Positions 6,760 to 40,684 of a DNA stretch of 40,684 nucleotides are shown here, one piece after another. The stretch is from positions 1 to 40,684 of the IMG/VR virus record IMGVR_UViG_3300027985_001840; one strand, 5' to 3'. The DNA is from a virus. Numbering within the stretch: position 1 is the stretch's first letter; every line of letters begins with the position of its first letter. The translations under genes and the position numbers were made by a program. The notes beneath the pieces were generated by a model. That model saw only the letters and a list, made by a program, of their open reading frames with translations, did no database searches and was not told the DNA's origin.

Positions 6760-7402
6760 AATCAAGGGTTTTCCCGGTTTTGTGTCCGCCGATCGAAAGG
6801 CCTTTGCCGAATTCCTGAAGCTTCAAACAAACGAAAGCGGAAAGCTGAAAGAGCCCGTGGAGATCGTGATGGCAGGATATCTCGCCAAGCAAGCAGACCC
6901 TGATGGCGAGTGGCTCCCTTGGGTCTTCTCGACTTACGACAATGACCGCTTCGACGAACGAGTCGATCCCGCAGGGTGGGAGCTTGACCGCTACAAGGAG
7001 AATCCCGTCGTGCTTTGGGCGCACTGCCACTCGATACCGGCGATCGGACTCGCGGACAATTTGACCGCCACGGACAAGCTCGCGGGGAGAATCAAGTTCA
7101 ACGCGAAGGAGATCGACGAGTTCGGCTGGTCGATAGGCGAGCGCGTGAAAGCAGGCGTAATCCGCGCGGGAAGCGTCGGGATGCTCGTAAAAGAAATCGA
7201 GTGGATAGACCACAAGAAGAACCCGGAGGAACCTTGCGACCTCATCATCAGGAAGCAGGAGTTACTCGAGTTTTCAATCTGTAATGTTCCGGCGAATCCC
7301 TTCGCCTTGCGTGATGAGGACTCGCAGAAACAGAAACGAACCGGCGCCCCTACCGCCCGTTCAGTTCAAGGCGGCCATTGGCCGCTTCCTATCATTAACT
7401 GA
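6749..7402 (+). CDS. Prohead (HK97-type) maturation protease
   Basis: 217-residue serine protease of the S63/U35 type that trims scaffold and capsid delta domains during prohead maturation. Visible motifs: H92 in LWAHCHSIPAIG, S142 in IRAGSVGM, and the ELLEFSICNVPANPFAL segment that ends the fold in this family. AAAGGAGGG at 6734-6742 precedes ATG 6749. It overlaps the LuxR-type gene and lies directly before the capsid gene, the canonical place. Confidence 0.9.
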   Translation: MLYRIKGFPGFVSADRKAFAEFLKLQTNESGKLKEPVEIVMAGYLAKQADPDGEWLPWVFSTYDNDRFDERVDPAGWELDRYKENPVVLWAHCHSIPAIGLADNLTATDKLAGRIKFNAKEIDEFGWSIGERVKAGVIRAGSVGMLVKEIEWIDHKKNPEEPCDLIIRKQELLEFSICNVPANPFALRDEDSQKQKRTGAPTARSVQGGHWPLPIIN

Positions 7403-7415
7403 AACGGAGGACGAC

Positions 7416-13186: not shown

Positions 13187-15765
13187 GTGATTCAGATTTA
13201 TATTCACTCAACAAGTGGTTTTTAGAGCGGCCCTATTGGATACAAATTGCAACTACTCGGTTAATGCAGCAGTCTGAACTTACTGATAAAGACATTGCTG
13301 AGTTAACAGTTCTGTGCCAACAGGAAGTTGCCGGTAAGCTGCCGGAAACGACATGGTTGTTTCCTTCAACAACATTCTCTCTGGGTACTGCAGGTACCTT
13401 GCGTTTGTGTTCAATCAGCGATGTTAAAGGTGTAAACGCCCTTGCGCCTAAAAAGCCGCTTGAGTTTGGCAAGGGGAATATAACCATTGTTTATGGCTAC
13501 AATGGGTCAGGAAAATCTGGATACGTCAGACTTTTAAAACACGTATGTGGAGCCCGTGAAATGGGAACCCTTCACCGTAATGTTTATAAGCCAAGTTCCT
13601 CTGTACAAAAAGCCTGTATTTCCTATGAGCGGGACGGTATATCGAAGACACTAACCTGGAACGGACAGGGTGTCTGTGATGACTTGAAAAGTGTTGATAT
13701 TTTCGATACATCGTTTGGCAAGATTTTTGTTAGCAGCGAAGATGAGGTAAGCTATGAGCCGCCGATATTATCACTTTTCAGCTCGCTTATCATTGTATGT
13801 GAAAAGGTTGCTTTAGCCCTGGATAATGAAGCAAATAGGTACCAATCAAAAAAGCCGAATATTCCAGCAGACAAGAAAGAAGTTCCTGAAGGTGTTTGGT
13901 ACGAGAATGTCAGCGCCAGGACCACCACCCAAGATATCGAAAAGTTTTGCAAATTTAGCAACAACGACGAAACTGAGTTACAGACACTACAGAAGCGTCT
14001 TGCTGAAGAGTCACCAGCAGATAAAGCAAAACAACTGAGAAGCCAGAAGCACCATATCGATACTTTGGTTCGGGATACTCAAAAGTATCTGGAACAATTA
14101 TCAGACGAGAATTGCCGGAGGATTATTGCTGCTAAGAAAAAGTTGATCTTAAAGAAAACAGTGGCAGATGTAGCCGCCGAAAAGGTATTTTCCGACAGCG
14201 AGTTGGATGGTATCGGATCCGATATATGGAAAGAGCTTTGGGATGCTGCTCGGAACTATTCCGTATCAGTTGCATATAAAGAAGTCGAGTACCCTAATAT
14301 CACTGATGGTTCTCGTTGTGTCCTGTGCCATCAGGTCTTGTCACAAGAGGCAAAAGAGCGGCTAACATCTTTCGAAAACTTCGTGAAGGGAGAATTGCAA
14401 AAGTCATCAGCTGAAGCAGCCAATGAATACAAAACCGTCAGTGAAACTATTGAATCGCTCCCATCATCGGAGACGCTGAAGACACGAATTGATGCGGCGG
14501 GAATTACACAGGATGACTTTTCGACTCAGGTGATGGATTTCTTTGTTCAACTACAGGCAAGAATAGATCTGCTACCTGATATTAATTCTGAAGAAACAAT
14601 CCCGAGTCCTTTGTCAGTGCCAAGATGGATCGAAGAAGCCAACATCCAGTCGGGAAAACTCGGTGTACTCGCAGTAAAATATGACGAAGATGCCAAAAGT
14701 GACAATCGCGAAGAGATCAAGAAAAAAATCAACAGCTTACAGGCCAGAAAGTGGTTATCTGAAAACCGGGCTGCTATTGATGAAGAAATATCACGTTTGA
14801 AACTACTTGACCAAATTCAGGAAGCCAAGAAATCGACAAACACCAAAGCTTTATCACAAAAGAAAGGGGAGATGGCAGAGGCCTTGATCACAGATGCATT
14901 CGTGCAACGATTCAACATGGAGCTAAAAGCACTCGGTGCGGCTCAAGTAAAGGTCGAAATGGTGAAATCAAAGGTTTCTAAGGGACGTGTTCTTCATAAG
15001 CTCCAGCTTCAAGGGGCCTCGCAGAATGGACTTGCTGATGTCCTGAGTGAAGGGGAAAACAGAATCGTGTCCATTGCGGCGTTCTTGGCCGATGTTACGG
15101 GTAAGTGCTACCATGCGCCGTTTGTCTTTGACGATCCAATATCTTCGCTTGACCAAAGCTATGAGGAATCTGTGGTTCAAAGGTTGATCGAGTTGTCTCA
15201 GGATAAACAGGTTATTGTTTTTACTCACCGCCTGTCATTGCTGGGGACTGTCAGACATTATGCTGAGAAGAAGTCCATTAAGCCGGAAATAGTGAGCATT
15301 CGTGCAACAGACTGGGGGACAGGAGAACCAGCTCCCATTCCAGTATCGCAGAGTGATATCAAAACAGCATTGAACGTACTAATAAATCAGCGGGCTCAGG
15401 ATGTAAATAAGGCAGACGAGAACGGCAATTTTGAATATTCAGAAATCCTGATAAAGTCGATATGTAGCGACTTCAGGACGCTGATAGAGCGCTCTATCGA
15501 AAATGATCTCCTATGCGGTGTTGTTCAGAGATTTCAACGACCGGTCTGCACACTAAAACTCAAGGATCTGGCTAAATTAAAAGCGGATGATTGCTCTGTT
15601 CTTGATTCGCTCATGACCAAGTACTCCGGGTTTGAACACTCGCAACCACTTGAAGCGCCGGTGGAACTGCCGAAATCGGAAGAACTTCTTGCTGATATGA
15701 TAAAGCTAAGAGATTGGCGTGAAGAATACCTTAAGAGGACTCCAGAAAAATGTTTGGTGTTATGA
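13183..15765 (+). CDS. RloC-like ABC ATPase with zinc hook, putative anticodon nuclease
   Basis: 860-residue SMC/Rad50-like ATPase. Walker A is GYNGSGKS (105-112), a central coiled coil carries the zinc-hook CVLC (C379, C382), the ABC signature is LSEGEN (621-626), Walker B is FDDPISSLD (about 649-657) and an H-loop follows (FTHRLS). RloC proteins have this layout plus a C-terminal anticodon nuclease. Here the C-terminus has R765-x3-E769 and H819 in a VVQRF ... FEHSQ context, matching the R/E/H type of PrrC/RloC, though the spacing to H is longer than in PrrC. Known RloC excises the wobble nucleotide and is linked to DNA damage. It is inserted between hsdS and prrC with ATGA overlaps on both sides. 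Nuclease function is inferred. Confidence 0.8.
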   Translation: MSDSDLYSLNKWFLERPYWIQIATTRLMQQSELTDKDIAELTVLCQQEVAGKLPETTWLFPSTTFSLGTAGTLRLCSISDVKGVNALAPKKPLEFGKGNITIVYGYNGSGKSGYVRLLKHVCGAREMGTLHRNVYKPSSSVQKACISYERDGISKTLTWNGQGVCDDLKSVDIFDTSFGKIFVSSEDEVSYEPPILSLFSSLIIVCEKVALALDNEANRYQSKKPNIPADKKEVPEGVWYENVSARTTTQDIEKFCKFSNNDETELQTLQKRLAEESPADKAKQLRSQKHHIDTLVRDTQKYLEQLSDENCRRIIAAKKKLILKKTVADVAAEKVFSDSELDGIGSDIWKELWDAARNYSVSVAYKEVEYPNITDGSRCVLCHQVLSQEAKERLTSFENFVKGELQKSSAEAANEYKTVSETIESLPSSETLKTRIDAAGITQDDFSTQVMDFFVQLQARIDLLPDINSEETIPSPLSVPRWIEEANIQSGKLGVLAVKYDEDAKSDNREEIKKKINSLQARKWLSENRAAIDEEISRLKLLDQIQEAKKSTNTKALSQKKGEMAEALITDAFVQRFNMELKALGAAQVKVEMVKSKVSKGRVLHKLQLQGASQNGLADVLSEGENRIVSIAAFLADVTGKCYHAPFVFDDPISSLDQSYEESVVQRLIELSQDKQVIVFTHRLSLLGTVRHYAEKKSIKPEIVSIRATDWGTGEPAPIPVSQSDIKTALNVLINQRAQDVNKADENGNFEYSEILIKSICSDFRTLIERSIENDLLCGVVQRFQRPVCTLKLKDLAKLKADDCSVLDSLMTKYSGFEHSQPLEAPVELPKSEELLADMIKLRDWREEYLKRTPEKCLVL

Positions 15766-15932
15766 ATAAACTTAATAAACAAGTTCGTAAAGTCATTATC
15801 TTGGATATGATGAATCACATTATTGTAATCATGTATGAAACCTTGTTGCATAAAATCAAAATACTGCTGAAACAATATTTGGGCCGCCACAATCTGCTTG
15901 TTGCTTTCTCCAGAAATGAGGGAACAGTTTAA
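15762..15932 (+). CDS. Small basic ORF coupled between the RloC-like gene and prrC
   Basis: 56-residue ORF whose ATG overlaps the RloC-like stop codon (ATGA) and whose TAA ends one base before the ATG of prrC. The product is basic and amphipathic (N-terminal NKLNKQVRK, then long I/L/V/M stretches), with no family I know. The tight fit copies the ATGA coupling used by the other genes of this operon, which supports translation. The ORF could also be chance open frame in AT-rich spacer DNA; it contains the prrC ribosome-binding site (GAGGGAA, 15918-15924). Confidence 0.4.
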   Translation: MNKLNKQVRKVIILDMMNHIIVIMYETLLHKIKILLKQYLGRHNLLVAFSRNEGTV

Positions 15933-15933
15933 T

Positions 15934-17058
15934 ATGGGAAAAACTTTACAGGAAATTTCACAACAACTCAAAGAGTCCAATAACAAAGTTCAGTTAATCT
16001 ATGCCTTCAATGGTATAGGTAAAACCCGTTTGTCTCGAGAGTTCAGGCTCCTGGTTGCACCAAAACATACCGATGAGTTACCTGATTCGGAGGAAGAAGC
16101 CGGAGTAAAAGTAATATACTATAACGCATTTACTGAAGACTTATTTTATTGGGATAATGACTTAGATAATGATATAGAACCAAAGCTAAAAATCCAGCCT
16201 AATAGTTTCACGGAATGGGTACTAAACAGGCAAGGTCAAGATCAAAAAATAATAGCTAACTTTCAGCATTATACCAATTCACATATAACACCGAAATTTA
16301 GTCCGGATTTTTCAGAGGTAACTTTTTCATTAACACGTGGTAATGATGAAAGTATCGAAAATATTAAACTCTCCAAAGGTGAAGAAAGTAACTTAATTTG
16401 GTGCGTTTTCTATTCCTTGATGGAACAAATCATTTACGAATTGAATATTGATGAAATCGCTGATCGTTCAACAAGTGATTTTAATCAATTAAAATACATT
16501 TTTATTGATGACCCTGTCAGCTCATTGGACGAAAACCACCTAATAGAGTTAGCAGTAAATATTGCAGGGTTGATAAAAACAAGTAAATCGCAAAAACTGA
16601 ATTTCATTATCTCAACTCATAACCCATTATTTTATAATGTATTATACAATGAAACCGGAGTAAGATCGGGGTGTTTGCTAAGCCGGAATGATGATGGAAC
16701 TTTTGCACTTGAGGAAAAGCAAGGAGACTCGAATAAAAGCTTTTCATATCATTTATATTTATTAGAAACTCTTGAAAATGCAATAAAACACAACCAAATT
16801 CAAAAATACCATTTCACTCTTTTGCGGAATTTATATGAAAAAACAGCACAATTTTTAGGCTATCCCAGATGGTCCGAACTATTGCCCGATGACAAGAAGA
16901 CCTACATGAATCGTATTATACAATTCACAAGTCATTCTACTTTATCCAACGAAGTAGCTGCGGTGCCTACAGAACCGGAGAAGCAAATCGTAAAATTCTT
17001 ACTGAATCATCTGAAAACAAAATATAGCTTTTGGCAGGAGGCAATAATAAATGAGTGA
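15934..17058 (+). CDS. prrC: PrrC anticodon nuclease
   Basis: 374-residue tRNA-Lys anticodon nuclease kept silent by the type IC R-M complex and released when a phage inhibitor (Stp in T4) or DNA degradation products disturb it. Near-continuous resemblance to E. coli PrrC: P-loop FNGIGKT (25-31), [12 protein letters not shown], signature LSKGEES, Walker [13 protein letters not shown], and the nuclease triad R298, E302, H334, whose spacings (4 and 32) equal R320/E324/H356 of PrrC. I start at ATG 15934 (9 nt after GAGGGAA) because it gives the MGKTL start expected for PrrC. It overlaps hsdR by 8 nt. Gene order hsdM-hsdS-prrC-hsdR equals the E. coli prr locus apart from the inserted RloC-like gene. 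Confidence 0.95.
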
Positions 17059-20000
17059 TTATAAAACCATAGCCGAATCAAAAAACTTTATCGTGCTTGA
17101 CAAGTACGTCAAGGAATCACAGGCTTGCGACAGCTATCAAACAGAAGGTGATCTTGAACGCGAACTAATTGAAGATCTACAAAACCAGGGTTACGAATTT
17201 GTACCTACTATAAACAATCCCGAAGCGATGTTGTCCAATATCCGCATACAGCTTCAAACCCTTAACAATATGAGTTTTTCCAATAGTGAATGGTCCCGAT
17301 TTGTCGAAAGCTATCTGGATAAACCCAGCGATACCATCATAGATAAAACCCGAAAAATACACGATGACTATATCTATGATTTTGTTTTTGACGATGGACA
17401 TATACAGAACATTTACCTGGTGGACAAGAAAAACCTCTCCCGTAACAAAGTACAGGTCATTAAACAGTTTGAGCAAACCGGCAATCAGGTCAACCGCTAT
17501 GACGTCACGATTTTGGTAAATGGCTTGCCCTTGGTACAGATAGAGCTCAAAAAACGCGGAGTCGCCATTCGTGAAGCCTTCAATCAAGTACATCGCTATA
17601 GCAAGGAGAGTTTTAACTCCGAGCAATCCCTGTATAAGTATCTCCAGCTTTTTGTAATATCCAACGGAACCGACAGTCGCTACTTTGCCAATACTACCAA
17701 ACGTGACAAGAACAGCTTTGACTTCACCATGAACTGGGCGAAGTCGGATAACAGCCTCATAAAAGACCTGAAAGATTTTACCGCTACCTTTTTTCAGAAG
17801 AAAACGCTTCTGGAAGTCCTGATCCGCTATTCGGTCTTTGATACAAACAACACCCTTCTCGTCATGCGACCCTATCAAATCGCGGCAACTGAGCGATTGT
17901 ATTGGAAAATTATCAGCTCGTATCAGGCAAAAAACTGGTCAAAGCCCGAAAGCGGCGGGTATGTATGGCATACGACTGGATCGGGGAAGACGCTTACGAG
18001 CTTCAAGGCGGCTCGCCTTGCGACCGAACTCGATTTCATTGATAAGGTTTTTTTCGTCGTCGATCGCAAGGATCTCGACTTCCAGACCATGAAAGAGTAT
18101 CAACGGTTTTCCCCTGATAGCGTCAATGGTTCCGACAACACAGCCGGACTGAAACGCAATATCGAGAAGGACGATAACCGGATCATCGTTACCACCATTC
18201 AGAAACTCAATAACCTGATGAAGACCGAAGACAGCCTACCGATTTACCAAAAACAGGTCGTGTTTATCTTTGATGAATGTCATCGGTCGCAATTCGGCGA
18301 AGCGCAAAAGAACCTTAAAAAGAAATTCAAGTATTTCTATCAGTTCGGTTTTACCGGCACACCCATATTCACCGAGAATGCCGTGGGCGCGGAAACCACG
18401 CAGTCCGTCTTTGGAACCGAACTGCACTCTTATGTAATAACCGACGCGATCCGCGACGAAAAGGTATTGAAATTTAAGGTTGACTATAACGATGTCCGCC
18501 CGCATTTTAAAGCGCTGGAATGTGAGCAAGACGAGCAAAAACTCAATGCAGCCGAAGCAAAGCAGGCGTTCTTGCATCCCGAGCGCATCCGTGAAATTTC
18601 GCAGTATATCCTGGACAAGTACAAGCAAAAGACCCATCGACTCCTTGCCAACGGGACCGGATTTAACGCGATGTTCGCGGTAAGCAGCGTAGACGCTGCT
18701 AAAGTATATTATGAGACCTTCCGCTCTTTGCAAAAAAGCAAGGACAACCCGCTTCGAATCGCCACCATTTTCTCCTTTGCCGCGAACGAAGACCAAAACG
18801 CCATCGGGGAAATAACCGATGAAAGCCTTGAAACGTCGGCAATGGACTCCAGCGCGAAAGAGTTCTTGAATTCCGCGATAAACGATTATAATGCCCTGTT
18901 CAAGACCAACTTCAGCACCGAGAGCAATGGTTTTCAGAATTACTACCGTGATCTTTCCTCACGCGTTAAGAAACAGGAAATTGACTTGCTTATCGTCGTG
19001 GGAATGTTCCTTACGGGTTTTGACGCGCCTACGCTGAACACGCTTTTTGTCGATAAAAACCTTCGTTTTCATGGCCTGATTCAGGCGTATTCCCGGACCA
19101 ACCGCATATATGACGCAACGAAAACATTCGGTAACATCGTCACATTCAGGGACCTGGAACAGGCTACCATTGACGCCATTACGCTCTTTGGCGATAAAAA
19201 CACGCGTAATGTCGTTCTGGAAAAGAGCTATGAAGAGTACATGAAAGGCTTTACCGATATCGCAAGCGGCGAAGCCCGGCGTGGATACCTGGAGGTGGTG
19301 AAAGAACTACAAACCAGATTCCCCAATCCCGATGAAATCGTAACGGAAAAAGACAAAAAAGCTTTTACCAAACTGTTTGGCGAATATCTGCGCGTGGAAA
19401 GCATACTTCAGAATTATGATGAGTTCGCGGGATTACAGGCATTGCAGCACCTTGATACGACGAATCCCGAGGCAGTTGAGGAGTTCAAGGCTAAGTACTA
19501 CTTGAACGACGAAGATATTGCCGCAATGCGGGAAATCAAAGTACCCCCAGCTCGAATGATTCAGGATTACCGGTCGACCTATAATGATATTCGAGATTGG
19601 CTCCGGAGAGAGAGTAACGCGAAACAGAGAGACGAGTCCACGATTGATTGGTCTGATGTCGTTTTCGAAGTTGATCTCTTAAAATCGCAAGAAATCAATC
19701 TCGATTATATCCTCGAGTTGATTTTCGAGAATAACAAAAAGCGCAAAGACAAGACCGCCTTGGTTGAGGATGTTCGGAGACTGATCCGTTCGAGCATCGG
19801 CAACCGCGCAAAGGAAAGTTTGCTCGTCGATTTCATCAATCATACGAATCTTGACGCCATTCAAGATAAAGCGCATGTCATTGACGCCTTTTTTGCATAT
19901 GCCCAGGCGGAACAACAACGCGAAGTCAACGAGTTAATTACCGAAGAAAAACTGAATGAGGAAGCTGCAAGGCGGTATATTACCGTTTCATTGAAACGGG

Positions 20001-20149
20001 AGTACGCCAGTGAAAACGGAACCGAACTCAATGCGATCCTGCCAAAAATGAGTCGGCTGAATCCTCAATATTTAACTATGAAACATACTATTTTCCAGAA
20101 AATTGCAAATTTTGTTGAGAAGTTTAAGGGCGTTGGCGGGAAGATATAA
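17051..20149 (+). CDS. hsdR: Type IC restriction subunit HsdR
   Basis: 1032-residue translocase-endonuclease subunit. PD-(D/E)XK nuclease residues D151, E165 and K167 are at the same numbers as in EcoR124I. The SF2 helicase core has Walker A GSGKT (310-314) and DECH (408-411), then FTGTPIF and the [10 protein letters not shown] motif VI. The C-terminal helical domain ending KFKGVGGKI, which binds HsdM, is intact. Very close match to EcoR124I over the whole length as I recall it. All catalytic residues are present, so restriction should be active. Confidence 0.97.
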
Positions 20150-20258
20150 TGAAATTTTGTCGTCAATAGTGTTGATTCAGATTTCTGAATTAATTCTTAT
20201 CTATACATTCTCAAGTATAACTGAGATTGCGTGGGTGATAGTTATTTATGTATATATG

Positions 20259-22552
20259 TTAGGATTCCCAATGTGCCTGAATATAACTTACCGTTTCTTC
20301 AGGATCGAGGCTTTGTATTGAAGCCGCTGCTCTGATAAAAAATAACTTCTCATTATCCTTTGAAACAAATATTGGTTTCTTAGCTCTTTCGACAGATACA
20401 ATGCAAATTTCGATATCAGATATTTTCTCGACTGATGACTTGATATATGAGAATCCAAATTTCTGGAAATATTTTATTAATAAACTATTAAGATAAAGAA
20501 TGAAACCGTCCTTGTTCTTTTTAGATAATGTTTGGTAATCATTGCTTAATCCAAGTAATCCAGAGTCATCATCTACGCCAATATATAGTATACCACCATC
20601 TGTGTTAAGAAAGCCTGCTATTGATTTTATTACCATAAACTCAAGTTCTTTGTTTAATTGTTTTGTTTTATAATCGTAACGAAGACTTGATTTGAATTCT
20701 GTTTTACCGGATTCTCCATCCTGGATAATTTGACCGTGATCAATCTTGTCTTCTTTGCTTGATGTATTTGTGTCCTTTTCGAGTAATTGTAGGTATACTA
20801 TTTTGTTCTTTTCGATTTTCTTAAAAAGTGTACTCCTGTCAGAAATAATGCTGTAGACGCTTGCCTTAACTTCACCTTCAGATGCTAATTGATTAACAAT
20901 ATCACTTAATTTTAAAATACGAGTGTCCTGATTCGATAACATTTCTATGATTCTATTAACTGTTTTAACTTGCTTTGACTGACCTGAATTTGATGGCAAC
21001 TTCTTTTCTGGATCAATGAGATAGTAGACACGGTTATTCTCTTTTTTCTTAACAAGCATAGTAATTGAAGTAAATCGATTATAGCAGTTGCCTTCTTTCC
21101 AATTAATTCCAGAAGTGATGAGCTCTTGCTGGAGTTCCTTACTAGTATATTGTTTGTTTGGATTCTTCTCCGCAATATGCAATAATATATCTTCAAGTTT
21201 TTCACGTGAGACACATTCACGAGTATGTTCAACAGGTATGGTATAATGCCGGTTCCATTCTTTTAATGCGAATACTCCGCGGTCGACATTGATAAACTTA
21301 TCGCGATGTTGGTTTATTATTGAACTGATTGAAGATTCTTTAACGTCATGTCTAAAACCTGAAATATATGAAAAAAGGTCTCTAACAGTACATTCATGAT
21401 TATAGTGATAAAAGGCTTTCTCAATTAATTCTACGATTGATGAAGAATCATTATTCCAGACAGTTAAACCCCATTTACCTGTCTTTCCAATTGAGGAGAA
21501 TAGCGGGGATGAAACAAGTTGATTTTTCATCGATGTACACGTTGCCTGACTATCCATATCTGACTTTGTCAAGCGATGACGTATTTCTCTCCAAATATCA
21601 GTTGCATGCATTACTTCGTTTTTTTCATACAGAACTCGATAAGCACAATCTTTTAATGATCGTAATTTATGAAAAGAAATCTGAAAAAAAACTTTTTCAG
21701 CATTTTCTATTTGTTCAACATAGGGTAGGATTCCAATTACTATTTCTATTAACTCTTTTGTAATTTTCTTTTTCTTGCGCAGCGCAATCACTATCTCAAT
21801 AAAGGGGACAGGAATTACCATGTCTTGTAAATACGTTATTAATGTATTACAAGTTAGTACAAAATCCTGATATGTATATGAGTTGTTAACAATGAAGACT
21901 TGAGTACCATTAAAATCATAATCACTTACATTTCCTACTGCTAAAAGTAACAAAATTATACCATTCTGTGTATCAACATTAGGCATGCCATTTGCAGTAA
22001 AAACAGATGATATATAATCACTCGTTATGATTTTCTGATTCTGAATATTGGCTTTGATTTCAGTAAAGGTATCAATAAGTTTCTTATCCAGTCTACAATA
22101 TGGGTTCTTTATTACTGAGCCCTCTAGTAAAGATGATAGTTTTTGAAGGTGTTTGGTTTCAATTTGTTGTACTCTTTGACGACTTATATCATAGAACAAG
22201 CCAATATCTTCGAATGTATATCGTTTATTTCCATTTAATGAGAAACGTTTTTCGATAATGTCTTTTGCCTTTCGATCGTTTAATAAAAGAAAATAGTCGG
22301 TAACAAATTGGTTAAAGTCATTGATTAGTAAATCGTGTTTTGTTATCGGCAAGATGGGTTCGCATTCCTTAAGATATGCTTCTTTTACATTTTGAGGGGT
22401 TGATACAATTTGCTTTCGAAATTGAAGGAGATCCTCCTCCGAGGCCTGCCCTACCGATTCTATCTTCTTGAAATCAGAAACTTTTATTCGTAAAACATCG
22501 TCTACAGTTCTACATTCTGCTAAATTCAGTTTCTTAAACAACCTACTAGGAA
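20259..22552 (-). pseudogene. C-terminal 88% of an IS-split alphaCTD/sigma4/HTH/AlbA_2 protein
   Basis: The coding frame continues from 22552 down to 20259 and encodes, in order: an RNA polymerase alpha-CTD-like helix-hairpin-helix (LNLAECRTVDDVLRI ... IESVG), a sigma-70 region-4-like helix-turn-helix (YTFEDIGLFYDISRQRVQQI), several winged-helix/HARE-like segments (e.g. ATDIWREIRHRL; YTSKELQQELITSG), and a C-terminal AlbA_2/Schlafen-type domain (SGKTEFKSSLRYD, FLNTDGGILYIGVDDDSGLLG). AlbA_2 modules occur in many defence proteins. Joined to 24991-25294 and without the IS, the frame gives about 865 residues. An ORF reading into the IS end could make a truncated 773-residue form. It is convergent to hsdR. 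Confidence 0.85.
22544..22552. repeat. Left copy of the IS target-site duplication
   Basis: TACTAGGAA, identical to 24982-24990 on the other side of the element. Confidence 0.85.
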
Positions 22553-22601
22553 TGTATTCCGTCAAGTGAAAATACCCCAAAAAAGCGTGTAAAAATACCC
22601 A

Positions 22602-23381
22602 TCAGGCGACGGGTACTTTTACCCGGTTTTTTTGTCGCATGAGCGCATGCTTCATGCGGTAACTCTCTCCTTCGAACAACACGATATAACCATGGTGAGC
22701 AAGCCGGTCGATCATGGCGGCAGCCATCTGGTCGTCGGTCATGATCGATCCCCACTTCGAGAACTCAAGATTCGTCGTAAGGATCAAGCTCCGCTGCTCA
22801 TAACAATCGGAGATGACTCTGAATAGCAATTGTGCTCCTTCGCGGCTAACAGGGACATAGCCCCATTCGTCTATGACGAGCAACTCCGCCTTTAAAATAC
22901 TCCGAAGTAGTTTCTCAAGCGTACCTGCGGCGAGCGCCTCGGAAAGAAGGACGACGAGCTGGGCTGCCGTGAAGAACTTGACCCGAAAACCGAGCTCGCA
23001 GGATCGCACGCCCAACGCAATCGCGAGATGGGTCTTGCCGGTTCCGACCGGTCCGTACAGGACGAGGTTTTTCTTCTCGGTAACGAACGAGCATGATTCA
23101 AGGTCTTTCCTGCTCACCAGAGGCGGAAACGTGCAGGATCCATCCTCGTATGTCTCAAGCGTTTTATAGACGGGGAACGCGGCCTCCCGAAGAAGCCGTG
23201 CCCGTCGAGTCTCCTCACGGTTTGCAATCTCGGCCTCAAGCACGCGAAGCAGAAATTTCTCGTTTATCGCGTTCGCTTCTTCCTCGCAGATACCGATTGC
23301 CGTTTGACTGAACGTCACCTTTTTCAGCATGAGCGAAATCGCCTTTCGCGTATCGGAACGGTTGGTTCGTTGCTGTCTCAT
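22602..23381 (-). CDS. istB: IS21 transposition helper ATPase IstB
   Basis: 259-residue AAA+ DnaC/DnaA-like ATPase that assists IstA and selects target DNA. Walker A is GPVGTGKT, Walker B is LLVIDEWGY, and sensor-type LILTTNLEFSKW follows. Length is normal for IstB. It overlaps istA by ATGA (23378-23381), so the two are translationally coupled. Confidence 0.95.
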   Translation of the reverse strand: MRQQRTNRSDTRKAISLMLKKVTFSQTAIGICEEEANAINEKFLLRVLEAEIANREETRRARLLREAAFPVYKTLETYEDGSCTFPPLVSRKDLESCSFVTEKKNLVLYGPVGTGKTHLAIALGVRSCELGFRVKFFTAAQLVVLLSEALAAGTLEKLLRSILKAELLVIDEWGYVPVSREGAQLLFRVISDCYEQRSLILTTNLEFSKWGSIMTDDQMAAAMIDRLAHHGYIVLFEGESYRMKHALMRQKNRVKVPVA

Positions 23382-24847
23382 AGTACGCTCCCTTCGCCAT
23401 GAATGAGAGCCGAGTCGTATACGGCGAGATTCGGACCCGAGTCGGGAATCTCGCCGAAGATATCGTACGCCTTCCGGGCGGCGAGCGCCTGCAGGCTGAA
23501 CTCATCGTCGGTTCCGCGCTTCACAGCTTCCTCAAGAGCCGACAGCGCTGCGTCAAAACCATAGTGCTCGGCGTTTTTGCCGAGAGACCGCAACAGTTCG
23601 CTTCGTCGGGACTGGGGCATTTCGTCGATGATGGACCGGCTATCGCCGTCCAGTTTGTTCCTGAGTTCGCAGTTTTTCCACGCGCCGCTTTTCTTGACGA
23701 GCATGTCGATACTCGTCAGGTAATCGGTCGAGTCCGACCGGCATGAGCCGTAAACCCTTGCGTGGCATGCGATTGTCTCTCCCGACTCGGAATAGACGGT
23801 TATTGCGTGGGCGCCGAGCCCGACGACAATGTTCGCGTATGCGTTTTCCGGTCGCGTCGAATACCAGTGATTCGAGTCGGTACAGAATTTGCCATACCCG
23901 TCTGTCCTGTATTTGACCAAGCGCTCGACCCGAAACGGTTTCGCGGGAAGCGGCGCGAGAGCCGCCTTGTCCTGCTTGAAAAGCTCGGCGATCGGTTTGC
24001 CCTTCTTGTAATGTTCCCGTTCAAAGTCCCGTTCGCATGTCGACAGTAATTCGTTGTTCCACGAAATCATATCCGTTACCGCAGGGATCGGAACGAACAG
24101 ATTCCGGCGAATATAGCCGACCTTGTTTTCCACGTTCCCTTTTTCCTGTCCGCTTTCCGGATTGCAGAAGGTTACTGAAAAACCATAATGGCACTTGAAC
24201 CGGAGAAACAGTTCGGAATACAGAACCTGATCGCGAACGCGTCGACCCACGCCCGTCGCGTTGTCGAAGACGATCCGCAGGGGAACGCCGCCGATGTGAT
24301 TGAATATGTCGAGCAGTCCCTGACAGACGCATTCCGCGGTCTCTCCGCCAAAGCATTGCGTGTACGCCGCGTTGCTGAACGGAAAGCTCAAAACAAAGTA
24401 TTTCCGGCTTTTCTTCTCGCCGTTTTCGAGTACGTCGGCTTCCCCAAAATCGGCTTGAGCCTCTCCTGGGAACCAGACGAGTTCGAGCGCTCCATCGGCG
24501 GCGACGCGGGCTTTTCTGGCCGTTTTCAGATACCGCTGAACGATGGAGTACGAGCAGTCAAAGTCGGGATGCAGTTCCGTGAGCCGGACGAATACCCGTT
24601 GCGCGGTATGCCTTTGCTTGTATCTCATGCGGCGATCTTCGTCGAGCCAGAGGTCTATCTCGCTTTTCCAGCGATCGAGTTTTGAGCCTCGCTGTGTTCG
24701 TTCAGAAAGTTCGTCGTTGAAGCTTTCCTTTTGCATGTAAGCGGACACCGTTTTTCGGTTGATTCCGAGTCGTCGTGAGATCTCTACTGGTCCGTACCCC
24801 TGGCGTTGCAGTTCCTTCACTTCGTCAATCTGGTTCATGGTCAGCAT
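23378..24847 (-). CDS. istA: IS21 transposase IstA
   Basis: 489-residue DDE transposase. An N-terminal helix-turn-helix (VKELQRQGYGPVEISRRLGINRKTV, about 7-31) binds the terminal repeats, and an RNase H-like core carries the first Asp in QADFGEAD, the second in IVFDNATG and the Glu in GQEKGNVENKVGY. The C-terminal Mu-type beta region is present. Full length for the family, with no frameshift seen. Confidence 0.95.
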   Translation of the reverse strand: MLTMNQIDEVKELQRQGYGPVEISRRLGINRKTVSAYMQKESFNDELSERTQRGSKLDRWKSEIDLWLDEDRRMRYKQRHTAQRVFVRLTELHPDFDCSYSIVQRYLKTARKARVAADGALELVWFPGEAQADFGEADVLENGEKKSRKYFVLSFPFSNAAYTQCFGGETAECVCQGLLDIFNHIGGVPLRIVFDNATGVGRRVRDQVLYSELFLRFKCHYGFSVTFCNPESGQEKGNVENKVGYIRRNLFVPIPAVTDMISWNNELLSTCERDFEREHYKKGKPIAELFKQDKAALAPLPAKPFRVERLVKYRTDGYGKFCTDSNHWYSTRPENAYANIVVGLGAHAITVYSESGETIACHARVYGSCRSDSTDYLTSIDMLVKKSGAWKNCELRNKLDGDSRSIIDEMPQSRRSELLRSLGKNAEHYGFDAALSALEEAVKRGTDDEFSLQALAARKAYDIFGEIPDSGPNLAVYDSALIHGEGSVL

Positions 24848-34363: not shown

Positions 34364-34662
34364 GCGCTCGAAGAAGAAGGATAAATCACTATAGTTGGCA
34401 GGTGTCACGGCTCAAAGATTTTATCCAAAAGGAACAGGCTGATTGCCTCCTCTATGAGATGTGCTATGAAAAACTGGGGAAGACGTTCTCATTCCAGGTT
34501 CTCTCGGTCATGGTGTTCATCCTCAAGGACGGATACGCGAGAAAGCCGGGGTCGCTCGTGACGCTCTATCGTGTGGCACATGCCGCCGATGGGCCTTGCG
34601 TTGATTTCGAGAAGCGGTACGAAAAATACTATTACGCACTCAGGGAACAGGGGTATCTGTGA
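34360..34662 (+). CDS. Hypothetical protein between tail and replication genes
   Basis: 100 residues, basic, mostly helical, no family recognised. It overlaps the preceding and following genes by 4 nt each, so it belongs to the same transcription unit as the helicase. A replication accessory role is possible by position only. Confidence 0.5.
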   Translation: MSARRRRINHYSWQVSRLKDFIQKEQADCLLYEMCYEKLGKTFSFQVLSVMVFILKDGYARKPGSLVTLYRVAHAADGPCVDFEKRYEKYYYALREQGYL

Positions 34663-36065
34663 CTGACGAAGAGAAAGAACTCGCGACGATGTATGACGCG
34701 CTACAGCTCAAGTTGGACGATCTGATCGCGGGTAAGGAGCAATTTACCGATCTCACCAACGCGGAACTCTTCGTGCAGGAATTCCGCGAGAAGATTAAAT
34801 ACTGCATGCCCTGGAAGAAATGGATCATCTGGGACGGGAATACCTGGCGTCCCGACGACTGCGGCGAGATATTCGCGCTCGCGAAGGAGTTTCTACGCGG
34901 CATGTTCCTCCGCGTTACCCGGATCAGCGATCATCAGCGGGCGGTGGAACTGGTGAAACATCTCGTGAAGTGCGAATCCTTGCGGAGAAGGCAGGCTCTC
35001 GTCGAGAGCGCGAGTCTTGAGCGTTCCGTGCGGATACTCCCCGCGCAGGTAGACCGCGAACCGTTCCTTCTTAACGTCAGGAACGGAACGCTTGATCTTC
35101 GGACGGGTGAACTGAATCCCCCAATGCGGGACAAGTTCATTACCAAATGCGCGTCGGTCTCGTTTGACCGGGGCGAACAGTGCCCGGAATGGTATAACTT
35201 CCTCCTCCGTATCATGAACGGTAACGCCCCGTTGATCTACTTTCTTCAGAAGGCCGTCGGCTGGGCGATGACCGGGGACATGAGCGAGCAGGTGATGTTC
35301 ATTCTGTATGGATCGGGCGCGAACGGAAAAAGCACCTTTATCAATACCATCATGGAGATTATGGGTGAGTACTCGATGGCGACGCCGACCGAGACCTTCA
35401 TGAAGAAGCATGGGGACGGGATCTCGAACGATATCGCGCGGCTTCGGGGGACTCGGTTCGTGACGACGGTCGAGGCCGAGGAAGGGAAGCGGATGAGCGA
35501 GCCGCTCATCAAGCAGGTGACCGGACAGGACATGATGACCGCGCGTTTCCTCTACGGCGAGTACTTCGACTTCCTCCCGACGTTCAAGATTTTCATGGCG
35601 ACCAACCATAAGCCTGTGATCCGGGGAAACGATCATGGTATATGGCGTCGAATAAAGCTTATCCCGTTTACCGTGACCATTCCCTACGAGGAGCGTGACC
35701 CTGATCTCATGGAGAAGCTTAGGAAGGAGCACAAGGGGATTCTCAACTGGATGGTCGAAGGCTGTATTCGATGGCAGAAGGAACGTCTCGGGGAACCGGA
35801 GGAAGTAAAGCGAGCGACGAACGAATACCAGGACGAGATGGACTTGATCGGTTCGTTCCTGCAGGAATGCTGCATTGTCGATCCGACGGGGTATCTGCGT
35901 ATTTCGTCGGGCGATCTTTTCCGCTCATACATCGCATGGTGCGAGCGGAACTCGGAGCGTCCGTACTCGCAGCGGATGTTCGGGATTCATCTGCAGAACA
36001 TGGGAATACAGAAGGACCGGACGAACAAGGCGCGGTATTGGGTGGGGATCGCGGTGAGGGAGTGA
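34659..36065 (+). CDS. D5/P4-type SF3 replicative helicase
   Basis: 468 residues. D5_N-type region (about 60-190), then Walker A GSGANGKST (218-226), Walker B VTTVEAEEG, sensor MATNHKPVIRGNDHGIWRR and the following LIPF strand, and a C-terminal winged helix (about 400-460). This is the helicase half of phage/plasmid primases such as P4 alpha and vaccinia D5; no primase zinc or AEP domain is present, so priming must come from elsewhere. Position at the right end, away from int, is unusual for siphophages but common in satellites and small temperate elements. Confidence 0.9.
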   Translation: MTDEEKELATMYDALQLKLDDLIAGKEQFTDLTNAELFVQEFREKIKYCMPWKKWIIWDGNTWRPDDCGEIFALAKEFLRGMFLRVTRISDHQRAVELVKHLVKCESLRRRQALVESASLERSVRILPAQVDREPFLLNVRNGTLDLRTGELNPPMRDKFITKCASVSFDRGEQCPEWYNFLLRIMNGNAPLIYFLQKAVGWAMTGDMSEQVMFILYGSGANGKSTFINTIMEIMGEYSMATPTETFMKKHGDGISNDIARLRGTRFVTTVEAEEGKRMSEPLIKQVTGQDMMTARFLYGEYFDFLPTFKIFMATNHKPVIRGNDHGIWRRIKLIPFTVTIPYEERDPDLMEKLRKEHKGILNWMVEGCIRWQKERLGEPEEVKRATNEYQDEMDLIGSFLQECCIVDPTGYLRISSGDLFRSYIAWCERNSERPYSQRMFGIHLQNMGIQKDRTNKARYWVGIAVRE

Positions 36066-36189: not shown

Positions 36190-37917
36190 ATGAACTCTCA
36201 AATCAAAGACATAATACTTAAGAACTCCACCTTTGGCTACTCATATGATCAGATTATACTTGATGAGGCCGGTATGCCTTGCGACTATATTTTTCTTGAT
36301 ACAAATCAGGTTTTTTTGACGATGCTTGGGTTGGATCAGGATAAGGTGGAAGGCAAGCGTATTTCGGAGATTGTTCCGACGGTTCTTGAAGATTCTTTTG
36401 ATTGGGTAGGATGCTTTGGAAAGGTTGCGCTTACCGGTGAGAGTACTGAAATTGAGGCCTTTTCATCCGCGTTGAATAAATGGTTTCATTTGTCGGTATT
36501 TTCTCCGATGAGAGAATATTTTGTGGTTATCTCATTCGATATTACGGATCAGAAAATCATGGAACAAGAGTTGGTGAAAAGCAAAGAAGAGCTCCGTGAG
36601 TATATCGATAATGCGCCGGACGGTGTTTTTATTACGGACAATACATTTCATTACATTTATGCCAATTCCGCTGCGTGTCAGATGGTCGGATACAGTATGG
36701 AAGAAATGCGCTCCTTACAGATTAAGGATCTTTTAGCGCCTGAAGACACCGCTGGCCACAAAAAGTCTTTGGATGAGCTACGAGACACTAAAAAATCCGG
36801 ACGTGTATCCCATATCATAACAAAAAATGGATCAAAAATTACCGTAGACGTGAACATCGTAAGCCTTGACAGCGGAAAATTGATGGCATTTTGTAAAGAT
36901 ATTACGAAGCTCGAACAAATCGAAAACGAGAAAAACCAGTATTATTCCGCTTTCCAAAATACTTCGCAGCCAATAGTAATAACGGATCCGGATGGCATCA
37001 TTATATCAGTAAATAATTCATTCTCAGAAATGTACGGTTTCTCACGAAATGAAGTCGTTGGAAAAAACCCCAACATCCTTAATCCTGGACGGGAAGTATA
37101 TGAAAATCTTGGAATAGGTAATTTCGAGTACGAGGCGATGTTCCGCGATCTTTGGTCTGCCGTTCGAGATCCAATGATACGCACATGGAAAGGGGAAGTA
37201 ATTAATCGGCGAAAAGACAACACGTTGGTATGGATCAGCCTTCTTGTAAACGCGGTATATAACGAAACGGGTACGCTTAAAAGTATTATCGGATTTCCGG
37301 TTGACATGACAGTATCGCATGAGATAGCGCAAAAAAACCGCATCCAACTATATAAAACAATTGCCGATCTTGCCGAATTACGCGATGACGATACAGGTAA
37401 TCATATGAAACGCGTAGGTCTCTTTGCGAAGCTTGTAGCCAGAGAGATGGGAAAGAACGTGAAATATTGCGACGATATCGAAATCTTTGCGCCCATGCAT
37501 GATATCGGAAAAGTCGGTATTTTAGATTCGATCTTGATGGCACCAAGAAAGTTAACACCCGAAGAATTTCAAATCATGAAAACGCACACGACACTTGGTC
37601 ATAACATTATTAAGGGTAAGGATGAATTCGAGATGGCTGCGGCGATAACCTTGTGCCATCACGAGAAATTTGACGGATCGGGCTACCCTCATGGAATCGG
37701 GGGCAAGCATATTCCGCTATCCGCCCATATTACGGCTCTGTGTGATGTCTACGATGCCCTTCGAAGCAAGCGACCTTATAAGGAACCCTGGACGCATGAA
37801 GAAGCCGTAAAATACATTATGGGAAGCTCTGGGTCGCATTTTGATCCCGATCTCATTGCTGTCTTCGCGCGGTTAAGTAACAGATTTCAGACTGTATTCC
37901 AGGAACTGACGGACTAA
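36190..37917 (+). CDS. PAS-PAS-PAS-HD-GYP signalling protein
   Basis: 575-residue cytoplasmic sensor and probable cyclic-di-GMP phosphodiesterase. Three PAS domains (about 10-125, 130-245 and 250-375; the second and third show clear YIYANSAACQMVGYS and GIIISVNNSFSEMYGFS motifs) precede an HD-GYP domain (about 395-565) with the HD pair at 437-438 (PMHDIGK), HHEKFDGSGYP and the GYP residues at 498-500. The catalytic motifs are intact. No transmembrane helix, so the input is internal. AGGAGA precedes ATG 36190. Probably resident chromosome. Confidence 0.92.
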   Translation: MNSQIKDIILKNSTFGYSYDQIILDEAGMPCDYIFLDTNQVFLTMLGLDQDKVEGKRISEIVPTVLEDSFDWVGCFGKVALTGESTEIEAFSSALNKWFHLSVFSPMREYFVVISFDITDQKIMEQELVKSKEELREYIDNAPDGVFITDNTFHYIYANSAACQMVGYSMEEMRSLQIKDLLAPEDTAGHKKSLDELRDTKKSGRVSHIITKNGSKITVDVNIVSLDSGKLMAFCKDITKLEQIENEKNQYYSAFQNTSQPIVITDPDGIIISVNNSFSEMYGFSRNEVVGKNPNILNPGREVYENLGIGNFEYEAMFRDLWSAVRDPMIRTWKGEVINRRKDNTLVWISLLVNAVYNETGTLKSIIGFPVDMTVSHEIAQKNRIQLYKTIADLAELRDDDTGNHMKRVGLFAKLVAREMGKNVKYCDDIEIFAPMHDIGKVGILDSILMAPRKLTPEEFQIMKTHTTLGHNIIKGKDEFEMAAAITLCHHEKFDGSGYPHGIGGKHIPLSAHITALCDVYDALRSKRPYKEPWTHEEAVKYIMGSSGSHFDPDLIAVFARLSNRFQTVFQELTD

Positions 37918-37929
37918 AGGTTTTCTTTT

Positions 37930-38781
37930 TTATAGCAAATCGCGTAGGCGTTCAATTGATTTCGGTGCTGAGCCCTCATAGTGATTATTTAGATACACTT
38001 TGACCAATCTGCTCCCGTTCGCGAGTGATCTGATCATACCGGCTATCTCTCCAAGGTCTTCCTTTGGCTCGACGATTTCGTTCCAGTTGCCCTTCGTCTT
38101 ATCCTCGATTTCTTTCCGGTCTCCGCCGAGAAGCCTAATCGCAACGCGATCGCCGATCAGATCACCGAATTTCGCGAAGAGTTCATACACATGCGGGAGG
38201 TATTGCTTTTCAGAAAAAACGTGCGCAATGTCATGATCCTTGAGGAAGTGAAAGTACTCGCGGGTCAGATAGTTCGCGTTTCTCGACTCGATGGCGAGGG
38301 GTAGCGTATTCCTTGTCCCTGACTTTTCAAGGGCAGTAACAAAGCCGTCGAGGGTCTTCAAAAAGGCGTCAAGACCGGCCATTTTCTGTTTGTTGAGGTA
38401 TTCGAATTCCAGCTCGGCGAGGAAAATCCGGTCATGCAGTTCTCGGGTTGCCTCAAGGTATTGAGAGTAGACCGTAGCCGATAGAAAGTCCGGGTTCGCG
38501 ATGAGCGGCGCCGTTTTATCCCGATTCCGCTCATGGGTCAGTGAGAGGGATTCGGTCAACTTGCAGGAAAAGGTAAAGCCCTCGGGGGTGAGCTCGCGGT
38601 ATTCTTTCGCGTCATCGGTCGAGGGTAGCTTGTAGAACCAGCTATCGACCTCGACCGTGGGATACCTCTCCGAATACTCCCGGAGATAGGCTGCCGAGTG
38701 CGATGCTTTACGGCTATAGACCAATCCGATCCATGAATCATAATTCCATGAACACGTGCCGAATTCAATGCTTCCCGCCAT
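37930..38781 (-). CDS. DUF72 (YecE-like) family protein
   Basis: 283-residue TIM-barrel-like protein. It opens with the family signature FGTCSWNYDSWIGLVY, then VEVDSWFYKLPS and FTFSCKLTESLSLTH, and has ESRNANYL and a late VKVYLNNHYEGSAPKS. The biochemical activity of DUF72 is not established. It is convergent with the HD-GYP gene, 12 bp between stop codons. No ribosome-binding site is visible before ATG 38781. Confidence 0.9.
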   Translation of the reverse strand: MAGSIEFGTCSWNYDSWIGLVYSRKASHSAAYLREYSERYPTVEVDSWFYKLPSTDDAKEYRELTPEGFTFSCKLTESLSLTHERNRDKTAPLIANPDFLSATVYSQYLEATRELHDRIFLAELEFEYLNKQKMAGLDAFLKTLDGFVTALEKSGTRNTLPLAIESRNANYLTREYFHFLKDHDIAHVFSEKQYLPHVYELFAKFGDLIGDRVAIRLLGGDRKEIEDKTKGNWNEIVEPKEDLGEIAGMIRSLANGSRLVKVYLNNHYEGSAPKSIERLRDLL

Positions 38782-39128
38782 GCCTATAGTGTCGTGGAAT
38801 TATCGGATACCGTCAAAGCTTTTTTCGCTCCCCCGTGCTCCCCTGTAGGGTGTCGCGAAAAGGTGACTCTTAGGAACAGTTTTCTCGCCAGAAAGTGATC
38901 GATTGTGATACTTCATGGTACCGAAAGATAAACCGTTCTTACTCTTTTTCTTATATTTCTTTCAGTGACACAAAAAAAGATAAAAAAAAGATATAAAGAG
39001 AAATAAAGAATAAAAGGTTGTAATTCGCGACAAATTCGCGTCTTTGCGACACTAGTAAAGCGAGTAAAGGCAAGCGCTGCGCGCACTCCCCGACGGAAAA
39101 AAATTGGAAGCGAAAAAAATCTGGAATC
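38782..39128. other. AT-rich intergenic region with a 9-bp inverted pair
   Basis: About 350 bp with no gene. A/T-rich purine runs lie at 38970-39015. TGTCGCGAA (38851-38859) is matched in inverse by TTCGCGACA (39024-39032). This is the natural place for the promoter of the structured region to the right, but no clear -35/-10 pair was found. Confidence 0.4.
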
Positions 39129-39493
39129 CCCGCCCGCGAAGCGGGCGGGCTCAGCGGGTAATCAGAATCATAGCCACACCAAACTTCAGGACGGAATCAT
39201 CACGGGAGCGGCCTGAAGGCAACCTTCGGGAACGCAGTACTGCCCGGTCTGTGGACGACGGTTCGGAAGGACGATAGTCCTGGAGGACCGCCGGACGCTG
39301 TCCGGGCAGTTGGGTCAAGCCGTTGCCGGAAGGTCGCGTGCTGACAGTACGGGGATAGATCACGGAATCGGTTCAAGGCAGAAGATGTCGAGGAATCAGC
39401 GTTTACGATGCGCTTGAGCAACCTCAGAAGAAAGCATGAAGAGCAAACACGATGAGTCTTCCTGACGGTTGAGCTTAACGCCTGGAATAAGCT

Positions 39494-39654
39494 GCTCCAA
39501 AAAACGCCGGGCAAGTGCAACGCGCCGGAGCCCCTAAGAGGCCCCCCTCTCCCCAAGTTCAATAGCGGTACCTTATTGTGGGGTATGCGGGGGGTGAGGG
39601 GTTTGGGGAGAGGGGGGCCGGCAGGGGCGGAGGGGACCCGGCGCTTTTTGGAGC
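39494..39654. repeat. Large nested inverted repeat
   Basis: Outer arms 39494-39511 and 39637-39654 pair over 18 positions with one G-U type exception (GCTCCAAAAA.CGCCGGG); inner arms 39540-39556 and 39603-39619 (GGCCCCCCTCTCCCCAA) pair perfectly over 17; GCCCCT/AGGGGC links them and CAATA/TATTG (39560/39574) caps the loop. Two stacked long stems form one of the strongest structures in the window. Confidence 0.75.
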
Positions 39655-39999
39655 CACGAGTTACCAGCTAACACTTCCGGGAAAAAGGGGAACCAAGCTT
39701 TCAGCGACGAAAGGTTGCGTGCTGACGGTATGCCTGAAATCTGACGAGAAGCGAATTGGCAGACAGATTTGAAAAGTGGTGCAATGGAAACGCGATTAAG
39801 GCGCCCTTGTACGGAGTGCGGGAAACCGCGGAATGAGGGCACGGGAGCACGAGGCCAGGAGGGCCGAAGTGCGGAGTGCCCGAGTGAAGGTGAAGCCGCG
39901 CAGGGACGCGCGGCGGAACTGGTTTGAGCCAAGAGCTGATGGCGTGCGGGAGAGCTGCCGAGATTGGTTCTTCGGTGCCGGTGACGATAGATTCCTGGG

Positions 40000-40130
40000 A
40001 ACAAAAATAATGTGTCGATCGGAGGAACGAGGGAGCGAGGAGCAAGCCCGACCGGAGCGACTGACAAGGAGCTCAAGGGAGGGTATGCGACGAGTGACCG
40101 AGTGACGGAGAGAGACACGTTATTTTTGTT
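40000..40130. repeat. Long fold-back with purine-rich interior, copy A
   Basis: Arms 40000-40016 and 40114-40130 (AACAAAAATAATGTGTC) pair over 17 positions with one G-U. The 97-nt interior is purine-rich (GGAGGAACGAGGGAGCGAGG). The left arm follows TGGGAACAA, as in copy B. Confidence 0.7.
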
Positions 40131-40215
40131 TTCTTTCGAGAGAGAACTGGGGAAGCGGAGGGCGAGAAACGCAGAAAGAGGAACATTGCAGAAGTGGGGG
40201 AGGTAGAATCTTGGG

Positions 40216-40292
40216 AACAATACCGCGCCGTGAACGGAGGAGTGGAGGCCCTGAAGGGGACGGAACGACGGAGAGAACGAGGCGGTATTGTT
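40216..40292. repeat. Long fold-back with purine-rich interior, copy B
   Basis: Arms AACAATACCGC (40216-40226) and GCGGTATTGTT (40282-40292) pair perfectly over 11 bp around a purine-rich interior with CGGAGGAGTGG. The same TGGGAACAA precedes it. Confidence 0.65.
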
Positions 40293-40320
40293 GACTTTTC
40301 CAGATTTAAACTGAGTGTAT

Positions 40321-40365
40321 GACCCGAATTACCAGTATGCTTTCAGCATACTGGTAATTCGGGTC
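40321..40365. repeat. Perfect 20-bp inverted repeat
   Basis: Arms 40321-40340 and 40346-40365 (starting GACCCGAATTACCAG) are exact complements with a TTTCA loop. No proper T-run follows, so a classical terminator is doubtful. It may end the structured RNA, or be a recombination or binding site. Confidence 0.75.
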
Positions 40366-40412
40366 GATCGGCAAGTTTTTCAGGCAATTTACTTGGATGG
40401 AGACTAGGGCTG

Positions 40413-40455
40413 TACAAATACACGTAATATGCTGGTGATTTTACGTGTCTTTGTA
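40413..40455. promoter_or_regulatory. 15-bp inverted repeat before the AbiEi-like gene
   Basis: TACAAATACACGTAA (40413-40427) and TTACGTGTCTTTGTA (40441-40455), one mismatch, 13-bp spacer. Second of three inverted repeats stacked in front of the antitoxin-like gene. Confidence 0.55.
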
Positions 40456-40485
40456 TACATCTCTTTTCGGAGTTTTTCTGGGTTG

Positions 40486-40537
40486 TGTTGCGAAATGTCG
40501 GTAAATATTGACAAATACCGACATTTCGCAACATACT
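40486..40537 (+). promoter_or_regulatory. Promoter inside a perfect 18-bp inverted repeat (putative AbiEi operator)
   Basis: Arms 40486-40503 and 40516-40533 (TGTTGCGAAATGTCGGTA and its complement) are perfect. TTGACA (40508-40513) lies in the 12-bp spacer, and CATACT (40532-40537) forms a -10 with 18-bp spacing. Binding to the arms would cover the promoter. Transcription would begin close to ATG 40544, so the mRNA may be leaderless. AbiEi antitoxins are known to repress their own operon through inverted repeats. Confidence 0.7.
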
Positions 40538-40543
40538 GGAATC

Positions 40544-40684
40544 ATGGAAACCAGTACCGACCAAATCCTGTCTCTCGTACGCACGCAAGGGATGATCCGG
40601 CCCCGGGATCTTGTTGCGCGGAATATCGCCACTGTTGTGCTTACTCGGATGGTTAAAAACGGTAGTCTTGTTCGCGTTGCGCGG
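40544..40684 (+). CDS. AbiEi-type antitoxin, N-terminal fragment at window edge
   Basis: 47 codons from ATG 40544, open to the window end. The reading (LSLVRTQGMIRPRDLVARNI, then TRMVKNGSLVRVAR) is the winged-helix start of the AbiEi/type IV antitoxin family, in which LRxLVxxGxLxRVxRGxY is typical. A type IV toxin (AbiEii-like nucleotidyltransferase) should lie just downstream. No Shine-Dalgarno is seen; TACTGG (40534-40539)/CCAGTA (40551-40556) places the start codon in a hairpin loop. The gene is too short here for certainty. Confidence 0.7.
   Translation, partial: METSTDQILSLVRTQGMIRPRDLVARNIATVVLTRMVKNGSLVRVAR

Follow-up and report, generated by a model that had tools for sequence, protein, structure and literature searches.

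The window analysed here is the whole of a virus record of 40,684 bases (G000), and close to its right end lies a conserved noncoding module of a spirochaete temperate phage lineage, the folded part of which is termed the element below. The folded + strand, about 1.1–1.2 kb in length, forms hairpins that stack around a core containing two C-tracts and four G-tracts, and comparison with its relatives supports a large, conserved, covarying single-strand fold carried by a mobile element. The best explanation, to which a probability of roughly 0.45 is given, is that the element is one strand of DNA, folded at the phage origin; a large ornate RNA, as suggested by an earlier sequence-only reading of the region, is a close rival. 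A more specific form of the DNA explanation, in which a kilobase-scale single-stranded DNA fold of GNA-capped hairpins and a purine-motif triple-helix core is displayed when the origin opens and is used in replication, is possible, if doubtful.

Phage setting, probable origin and ends of the module

The window phage encodes an integrase (50-1408), a terminase (3483-4727), a capsid protein (7284-8729) and, on the + strand, a D5-family primase-helicase (34659-36065; Pfam D5_N, DUF5906 and Pox_D5). From the primase-helicase gene onward the order is cargo, C-rich box, AT-rich repeat region, C-rich box, folded element and prophage end. A D5_N/Pox_D5 protein of 465-490 aa is also encoded upstream of the element in L095, L115, L117, L119 and L147, five loci picked for carrying an ORF of that size, and a D5_N/Pox_D5 gene again lies upstream in the Treponema-type locus L253, with about 10 kb of cargo in between. 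In the window, the cargo between primase and element (36190-38781) consists of a PAS-HD signalling protein and a DUF72 protein, the PAS-HD gene being common to the window, L116 and L008; other cargo (10446-24847) includes type I restriction-modification and AAA-type ATPase genes, a Schlafen AlbA_2 protein and an IS21-type pair. Cargo by the element in the Treponema prophage of L253 (13221-15502) includes a UmuC-like polymerase and an S24 (UmuD/CI-like) protein, L254 has ankyrin-repeat genes, and a small ORF just upstream of the element in L146 (5080-5274) has a double-glycine-type leader and looks bacteriocin-like by eye. Judged by sequence kinship, the host of the window phage is a spirochaete, since the best-matching relatives of the DUF72 protein adjoining the element come from Spirochaetales genomes (at most 80% identity, on genome contigs) and blocks of the window match the MAGs of Spiro_09 and Treponema sp. 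MAG11. The same DUF72 protein, when used as a query for related loci among viral contigs, returned no relative.

The AT-rich region with phage-specific repeats (38850-39052) is a probable replication origin, so called because its AT-rich core between inverted iteron-like repeats resembles the primase-ori modules described in the excerpt of PMC6092414. The inverted arms lie at 38850-38866 and 39036-39052, with GCGACA present three times, and in 11 loci a 6-mer recurs in 3 to 7 copies (raw counts); the motif varies from phage to phage, and the layout is constant in window-type phages. Two C-rich boxes on the + strand flank this region: the upstream one, of TCCCCCGTGCTCCCCT type (38828-38844; alignment A4), is found as a pattern in 28 of 41 loci, and the downstream one, GCGCGCACTCCCCG (39079-39092), in 31 of 41, both counts including loci with short flanks. 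A possible long pairing of the upstream box with 39840-39854 is, judged by eye, missing from some relatives. The arrangement is like that of SaPI/PICI and P4-type primase-ori replicons, in which a primase gene is followed by two repeat sets flanking an AT-rich region; unlike these, cargo genes may separate the primase from the repeats, a large folded element follows, and the window phage has its own capsid and terminase.

The earlier reading took the region to be free of genes and to span 39129-40365. ORFs of 215, 120 and 114 aa (minus strand) and 90 aa (plus strand) do overlap the element; however, when set against four relatives they show substitutions spread evenly over the codon positions and indels mostly of 1-2 nt, so the region is noncoding as claimed and a coding explanation is ruled out. 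The bounds have to be moved, as the unit starts earlier, with the C-rich box near 38828, and its folded part ends near 40300. The perfect inverted repeat said to close the arrangement is real (21 bp arms, 40321-40365) but does not belong to the element: in MAG11, the counterpart of window 40313 onward lies about 2.9 kb away from the element (L096 1-577 and 3496-3872), and as the match resumes at 40313 the prophage end is placed near there, leaving the palindrome outside. A second perfect palindrome (40486-40533), also outside the element, precedes an ORF starting near 40543, which may resemble an AbiEi-type antitoxin. A T-arm motif of a tRNA 3' end is found within 1.5 kb downstream in 18 of 41 loci and upstream in 1 of 41, and ARAGORN detected no complete tRNA in 22 loci; tRNA 3' fragments without a complete tRNA are as expected of prophage attachment sites. 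No such fragment was seen in the window itself.

Fold, homologues and covariation

When folded as RNA, the + strand of 39129-40070 has a minimum free energy of -402 kcal/mol vs -352 in shuffles (z -6.83), and the opposite strand has -343 (z -4.30), each against 20 shuffles; z-scores in three members are -6.8, -6.4 and -6.9. The nested stems reported earlier for 39129-40365 are indeed there, as are the three long fold-backs (39494-39511 with 39637-39654, 40000-40016 with 40114-40130, and 40216-40231 with 40277-40292) and the purine-rich strand, the + strand of 39001-40000 having a GC skew of 0.193 and an AT skew of 0.224. All parts named here are on the + strand. The first hairpin (39129-39149) has a triloop closed by C and G, C-GAA-G, whose loop is GAA, GTA, GCA or GGA among relatives, and is followed by a 5' domain (39218-39336, including the 39239-39310 stem) with compensatory changes in its helices. 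The core is enclosed by an outer helix, the first of the fold-backs (5' arm 39494-39511, 3' arm 39637-39654), which shows compensatory changes in both arms; in its Treponema-type counterpart, helix 1, both sides have changed in 9 of 13 pairs. Downstream, alignment and compensatory changes define a conserved hairpin group (39838-39923, including 39895-39914 with an ANGGAY hexaloop), 3' stem 1, a long helix around a purine-rich interior (39985-40130), and 3' stem 2 (40204-40292), which repeats the stem 1 module and is single in SZUA-475. Conserved loop motifs of the element are ANGGAY and GG-CAA-UG-AA. In MAG11 (L009 1-560), hairpin units of about 125-140 nt are repeated in tandem over the 5' part of the element, and the contig ends inside the array.

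The element has ten close relatives, the window included, in Spirochaetota genomes. With the window element as query, blastn reached E <0.001 in 3 of 10 spirochaete genomes (MAG11, Spiro_09 and SZUA-475), the MAG11 match being 88% across query positions 497-1077; the SZUA-475 copy matched 9 of 291 genomes of its order at E <=0.001, two of them weakly (G008 and G285, E 9e-4), and the G274 copy matched 5 of 274 genomes of its family. Genomes G199 and G274 carry two copies each. A covariance model of the core built from nine sequences (R1), run over 392 genomes of the phylum, matched 10 at E <=0.01, among them a Treponema type, and a second model (R2), built from five Treponema-type copies and no window-type sequence, matched 23 of 195 Treponema-family genomes at E <=0.001, with 28 copies at E <=7e-20. 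R2 also matches the window core on the + strand (E 6e-6), such that the two models, each built without the other group, recover each other's members. Further covariance-model matches lie in G115 and G075. No match to R1 was obtained in four genomes of other phyla, nor any blastn match to the element in phages and plasmids, and pattern scans of viral contigs gave matches inside genes or in unrelated phages and otherwise none, leaving the window as the sole viral record found with the element in those scans. A 17-mer of the core, CAGGGGCGGAGGGRACC, also occurs in apparent intergenic hairpins of unrelated phages (L124, L125/L127, L126 and L128).

Covariation was evaluated on 28 Treponema-type cores (alignment A7), in which 95.1% of cells pair vs 88.3 in shuffles and 21 pairs have changed on both sides vs 10.4. 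The covariation score is 0.211 vs 0.093 in shuffles, a value reached by 0 of 500, and slid partners score at most 0.067; the alignment was fitted to the covariance model, which favours this score. In window-type helices, picked by Watson-Crick pairs alone, 45 of 205 pairs show at least two Watson-Crick types. The compensatory changes thus exceed every shuffle, and the conserved, covarying fold stands as the part of the ornate RNA proposal that was upheld; membership of GOLLD, ROOL, OLE, HEARO or group II introns was not.

The core as a triplex-like arrangement

The core runs from a C strand (CCCCCCTCTCCCC, 39542-39554) through a small hairpin to a G-rich third strand (GGGGGGTGAGGGG, 39589-39601) and on, past a short turn, to a central G strand (GGGGAGAGGGGGG, 39605-39617), all on the + strand; the central strand is the Watson-Crick partner of the C strand, and the third strand is its mirror. 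Almost every member has the two C-tracts and four G-tracts. The core copy in L185 (1314-1446) is without the inner hairpin and two G-tracts, perhaps through a deletion between repeated G-tracts. In 13 members the mirror fit of third to central strand is 0.784 vs 0.447 with permuted partners (0 of 20,000), a result weakened by the strands having been cut by hand and by shared ancestry; a parallel alignment does at least as well in 7 of the 13, being better in G199b and equal in G251, Spiro09, G139, G145, G155 and G067. By analogy, the tracts are arranged in a way that resembles a purine-motif triplex, a form described as intrastrand in bacterial DNA and said to be unable to form in RNA in the excerpt of PMC4666352. 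The likeness to PIT/BoxC/TMECO repeats lies in a C-rich strand and two G-rich strands with a 3-nt turn, with ..TGA.. in the third and ..AGA.. in the central strand. The strand order differs, however, the window core having C, third, central where the described class II has C, central, third; an additional hairpin of some 34 nt separates the strands, and unlike those dispersed repeats the core belongs to a 1.2-kb fold. Compared by eye, the window core therefore has the three stems and 3-nt turn of the PIT/TMECO pattern (CCCTCNCCC N3-6 GGGNGAGGG N3 GGGNGAGGG), but its first loop is longer and its strands follow a different order, and it does not fit that pattern. Whatever the chemistry of the strand, the core might instead be a four-tract G-quadruplex, for which the two C-tracts and four G-tracts in nearly all members can be cited; such a structure does not need the mirrored third and central strands seen in the hand-cut comparison, and it is considered unlikely, a judgement made separately from the choice between DNA and RNA.

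Strand chemistry and rival explanations

We infer the AT-rich region to be an origin, the folded molecule to be DNA and its role to lie in priming or pausing. In the proposed mechanism, the phage primase-helicase would open the origin, upon which the + strand would fold as single-stranded DNA; the fold could then act in phage replication either as a platform for loading or priming or by pausing the fork. The position beside iteron-like repeats, in phages with a D5 primase, is counted in favour of this explanation; counted against it are the calling of the origin from repeats alone and a DNA fold z-score of -4.0, weaker than the RNA value of -6.8. To our knowledge, no folded single-stranded DNA element of such size has been described. 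The attC sites of integrons are folded single DNA strands with a function, although they are far smaller and are recombination sites. We know of no sequence relation between them and the element.

In an RNA of the folded strand, G-U pairs are allowed and A-C pairs are not. A strand-symmetric count was therefore made in which helices were picked by Watson-Crick pairs only and G-U was then compared with A-C. In helices that contain three or more covarying pairs, the G-U:A-C ratio was 71:5 for RNase P RNA from 25 Treponema-family genomes and 48:10 for tmRNA from 27 such genomes, whereas the element gave 3:3 in its strongest Treponema helix (helix 1, 58 doubly changed cells) and 20:14 in window-type helices. 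Pooled, this is 23:17 vs 119:15 (Fisher P 3e-5), or P = 0.011 against tmRNA alone, with counts that are small and taken over homologous loci, so that the P-values overstate independence. The Treponema core with the 3' part in a MAFFT alignment gave 22:17, and looser settings gave 43:23 (window-type), 13:6 (Treponema core) and 58:45; misaligned helices would drive the ratio toward 1:1. An initial whole-fold count of 334:302 was too noisy for use. The loops described earlier as GNRA-like are mostly GNA triloops: over 37 loci, hairpins of the element with stems of at least 6 pairs have 25 GNA, 0 of the complement TNC and 5 GNRA loops, giving the loops a + strand polarity. RNase P hairpins (stems of at least 5 pairs) have 1 GNA and 32 GNRA, and tmRNA hairpins, with 3 of each, did not discriminate. 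In these small numbers, the RNA-type pattern of G-U well above A-C with GNRA loops is not seen in the element. GNA loops and tandem G-A pairs also occur in RNA. According to the title of Yoshizawa 1997, cited in PMC7432603, GNA loops give very stable DNA minihairpins, and for the STAXI motif DNA vs RNA was weighed by its loops according to the excerpt of PMC2864571. Taken together, the little G-U excess, the GNA loops and the triplex-like core lean to folded single-stranded DNA, and the size, setting and RNA fold score lean to RNA.

The RNA explanation holds that the element is a new large ornate phage RNA working like GOLLD or ROOL, one whose transcription would run rightward out of the AT-rich region and which would be abundant during the lytic phase and perhaps self-assemble. 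It is a serious contender, drawing on the size, the multi-stem fold with its z-scores in three members, the purine-rich loops, the motifs ANGGAY and GG-CAA-UG-AA, the position at a prophage end marked by tRNA 3' fragments, and the elaborate conserved secondary structure with compensatory changes. The excerpt of PMC12286853 presents GOLLD and ROOL as nanocage-forming RNAs whose function is unknown, encoded by prophages and phages and often located near tRNA islands, and abundant noncoding transcripts are produced by phage ICP1 and its satellites (excerpt of PMC7567579). The element shares with GOLLD and ROOL its size class, ornate fold, phage or prophage setting and closeness to tRNA sequence; it differs in that it matches neither by sequence nor by model, has GNA loops in place of GNRA and a small G-U excess, and lies beside a probable origin, and it is known from sequence alone. 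Weighing against the RNA explanation, besides the near parity of G-U and A-C and the loop type, are scans of the element for promoters and terminators, which found none above chance, and the lack of an Rfam match. Rfam covariance models gave 0 gathering-score matches in the window or seven relatives, and a search of 38800-40684 at E up to 5 returned 27 matches, nearly all to miRNA or snoRNA, with no GOLLD, ROOL, OLE, HEARO or group II intron among them. A degenerate copy of one of these five, too diverged for Rfam, is hardly credible on these results, having nothing in its favour beyond size and setting. The element thus belongs to no described RNA family, and a literature search, judged largely by titles and abstract openings, returned no paper describing it.

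The parity of G-U and A-C would also suit a palindrome-rich region kept by mutation, through arm-to-arm copying or REP-/PIT-like repeat spread, with no function of its own; the tandem hairpin array in MAG11 fits this as well, as does the link of the PIT/TMECO motif to instability in the excerpt of PMC4666352. The position and order of the parts are nevertheless constant in distant phages, the unpaired motifs are invariant and the GNA loops vary at the middle base only, which makes such an explanation very improbable.

The folded single DNA strand remains the preferred explanation. Few very large structured noncoding elements are known from phages, and the element brings to them a widespread family not described before, with a signature that separates two testable hypotheses, RNA or folded DNA. 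Should the element be RNA, it would be of a kind with GOLLD and ROOL, which form cages, and would have a core disallowed for RNA by current triplex rules; should it be DNA, selection can shape single-stranded DNA into structures as complex as ribosomal RNA.
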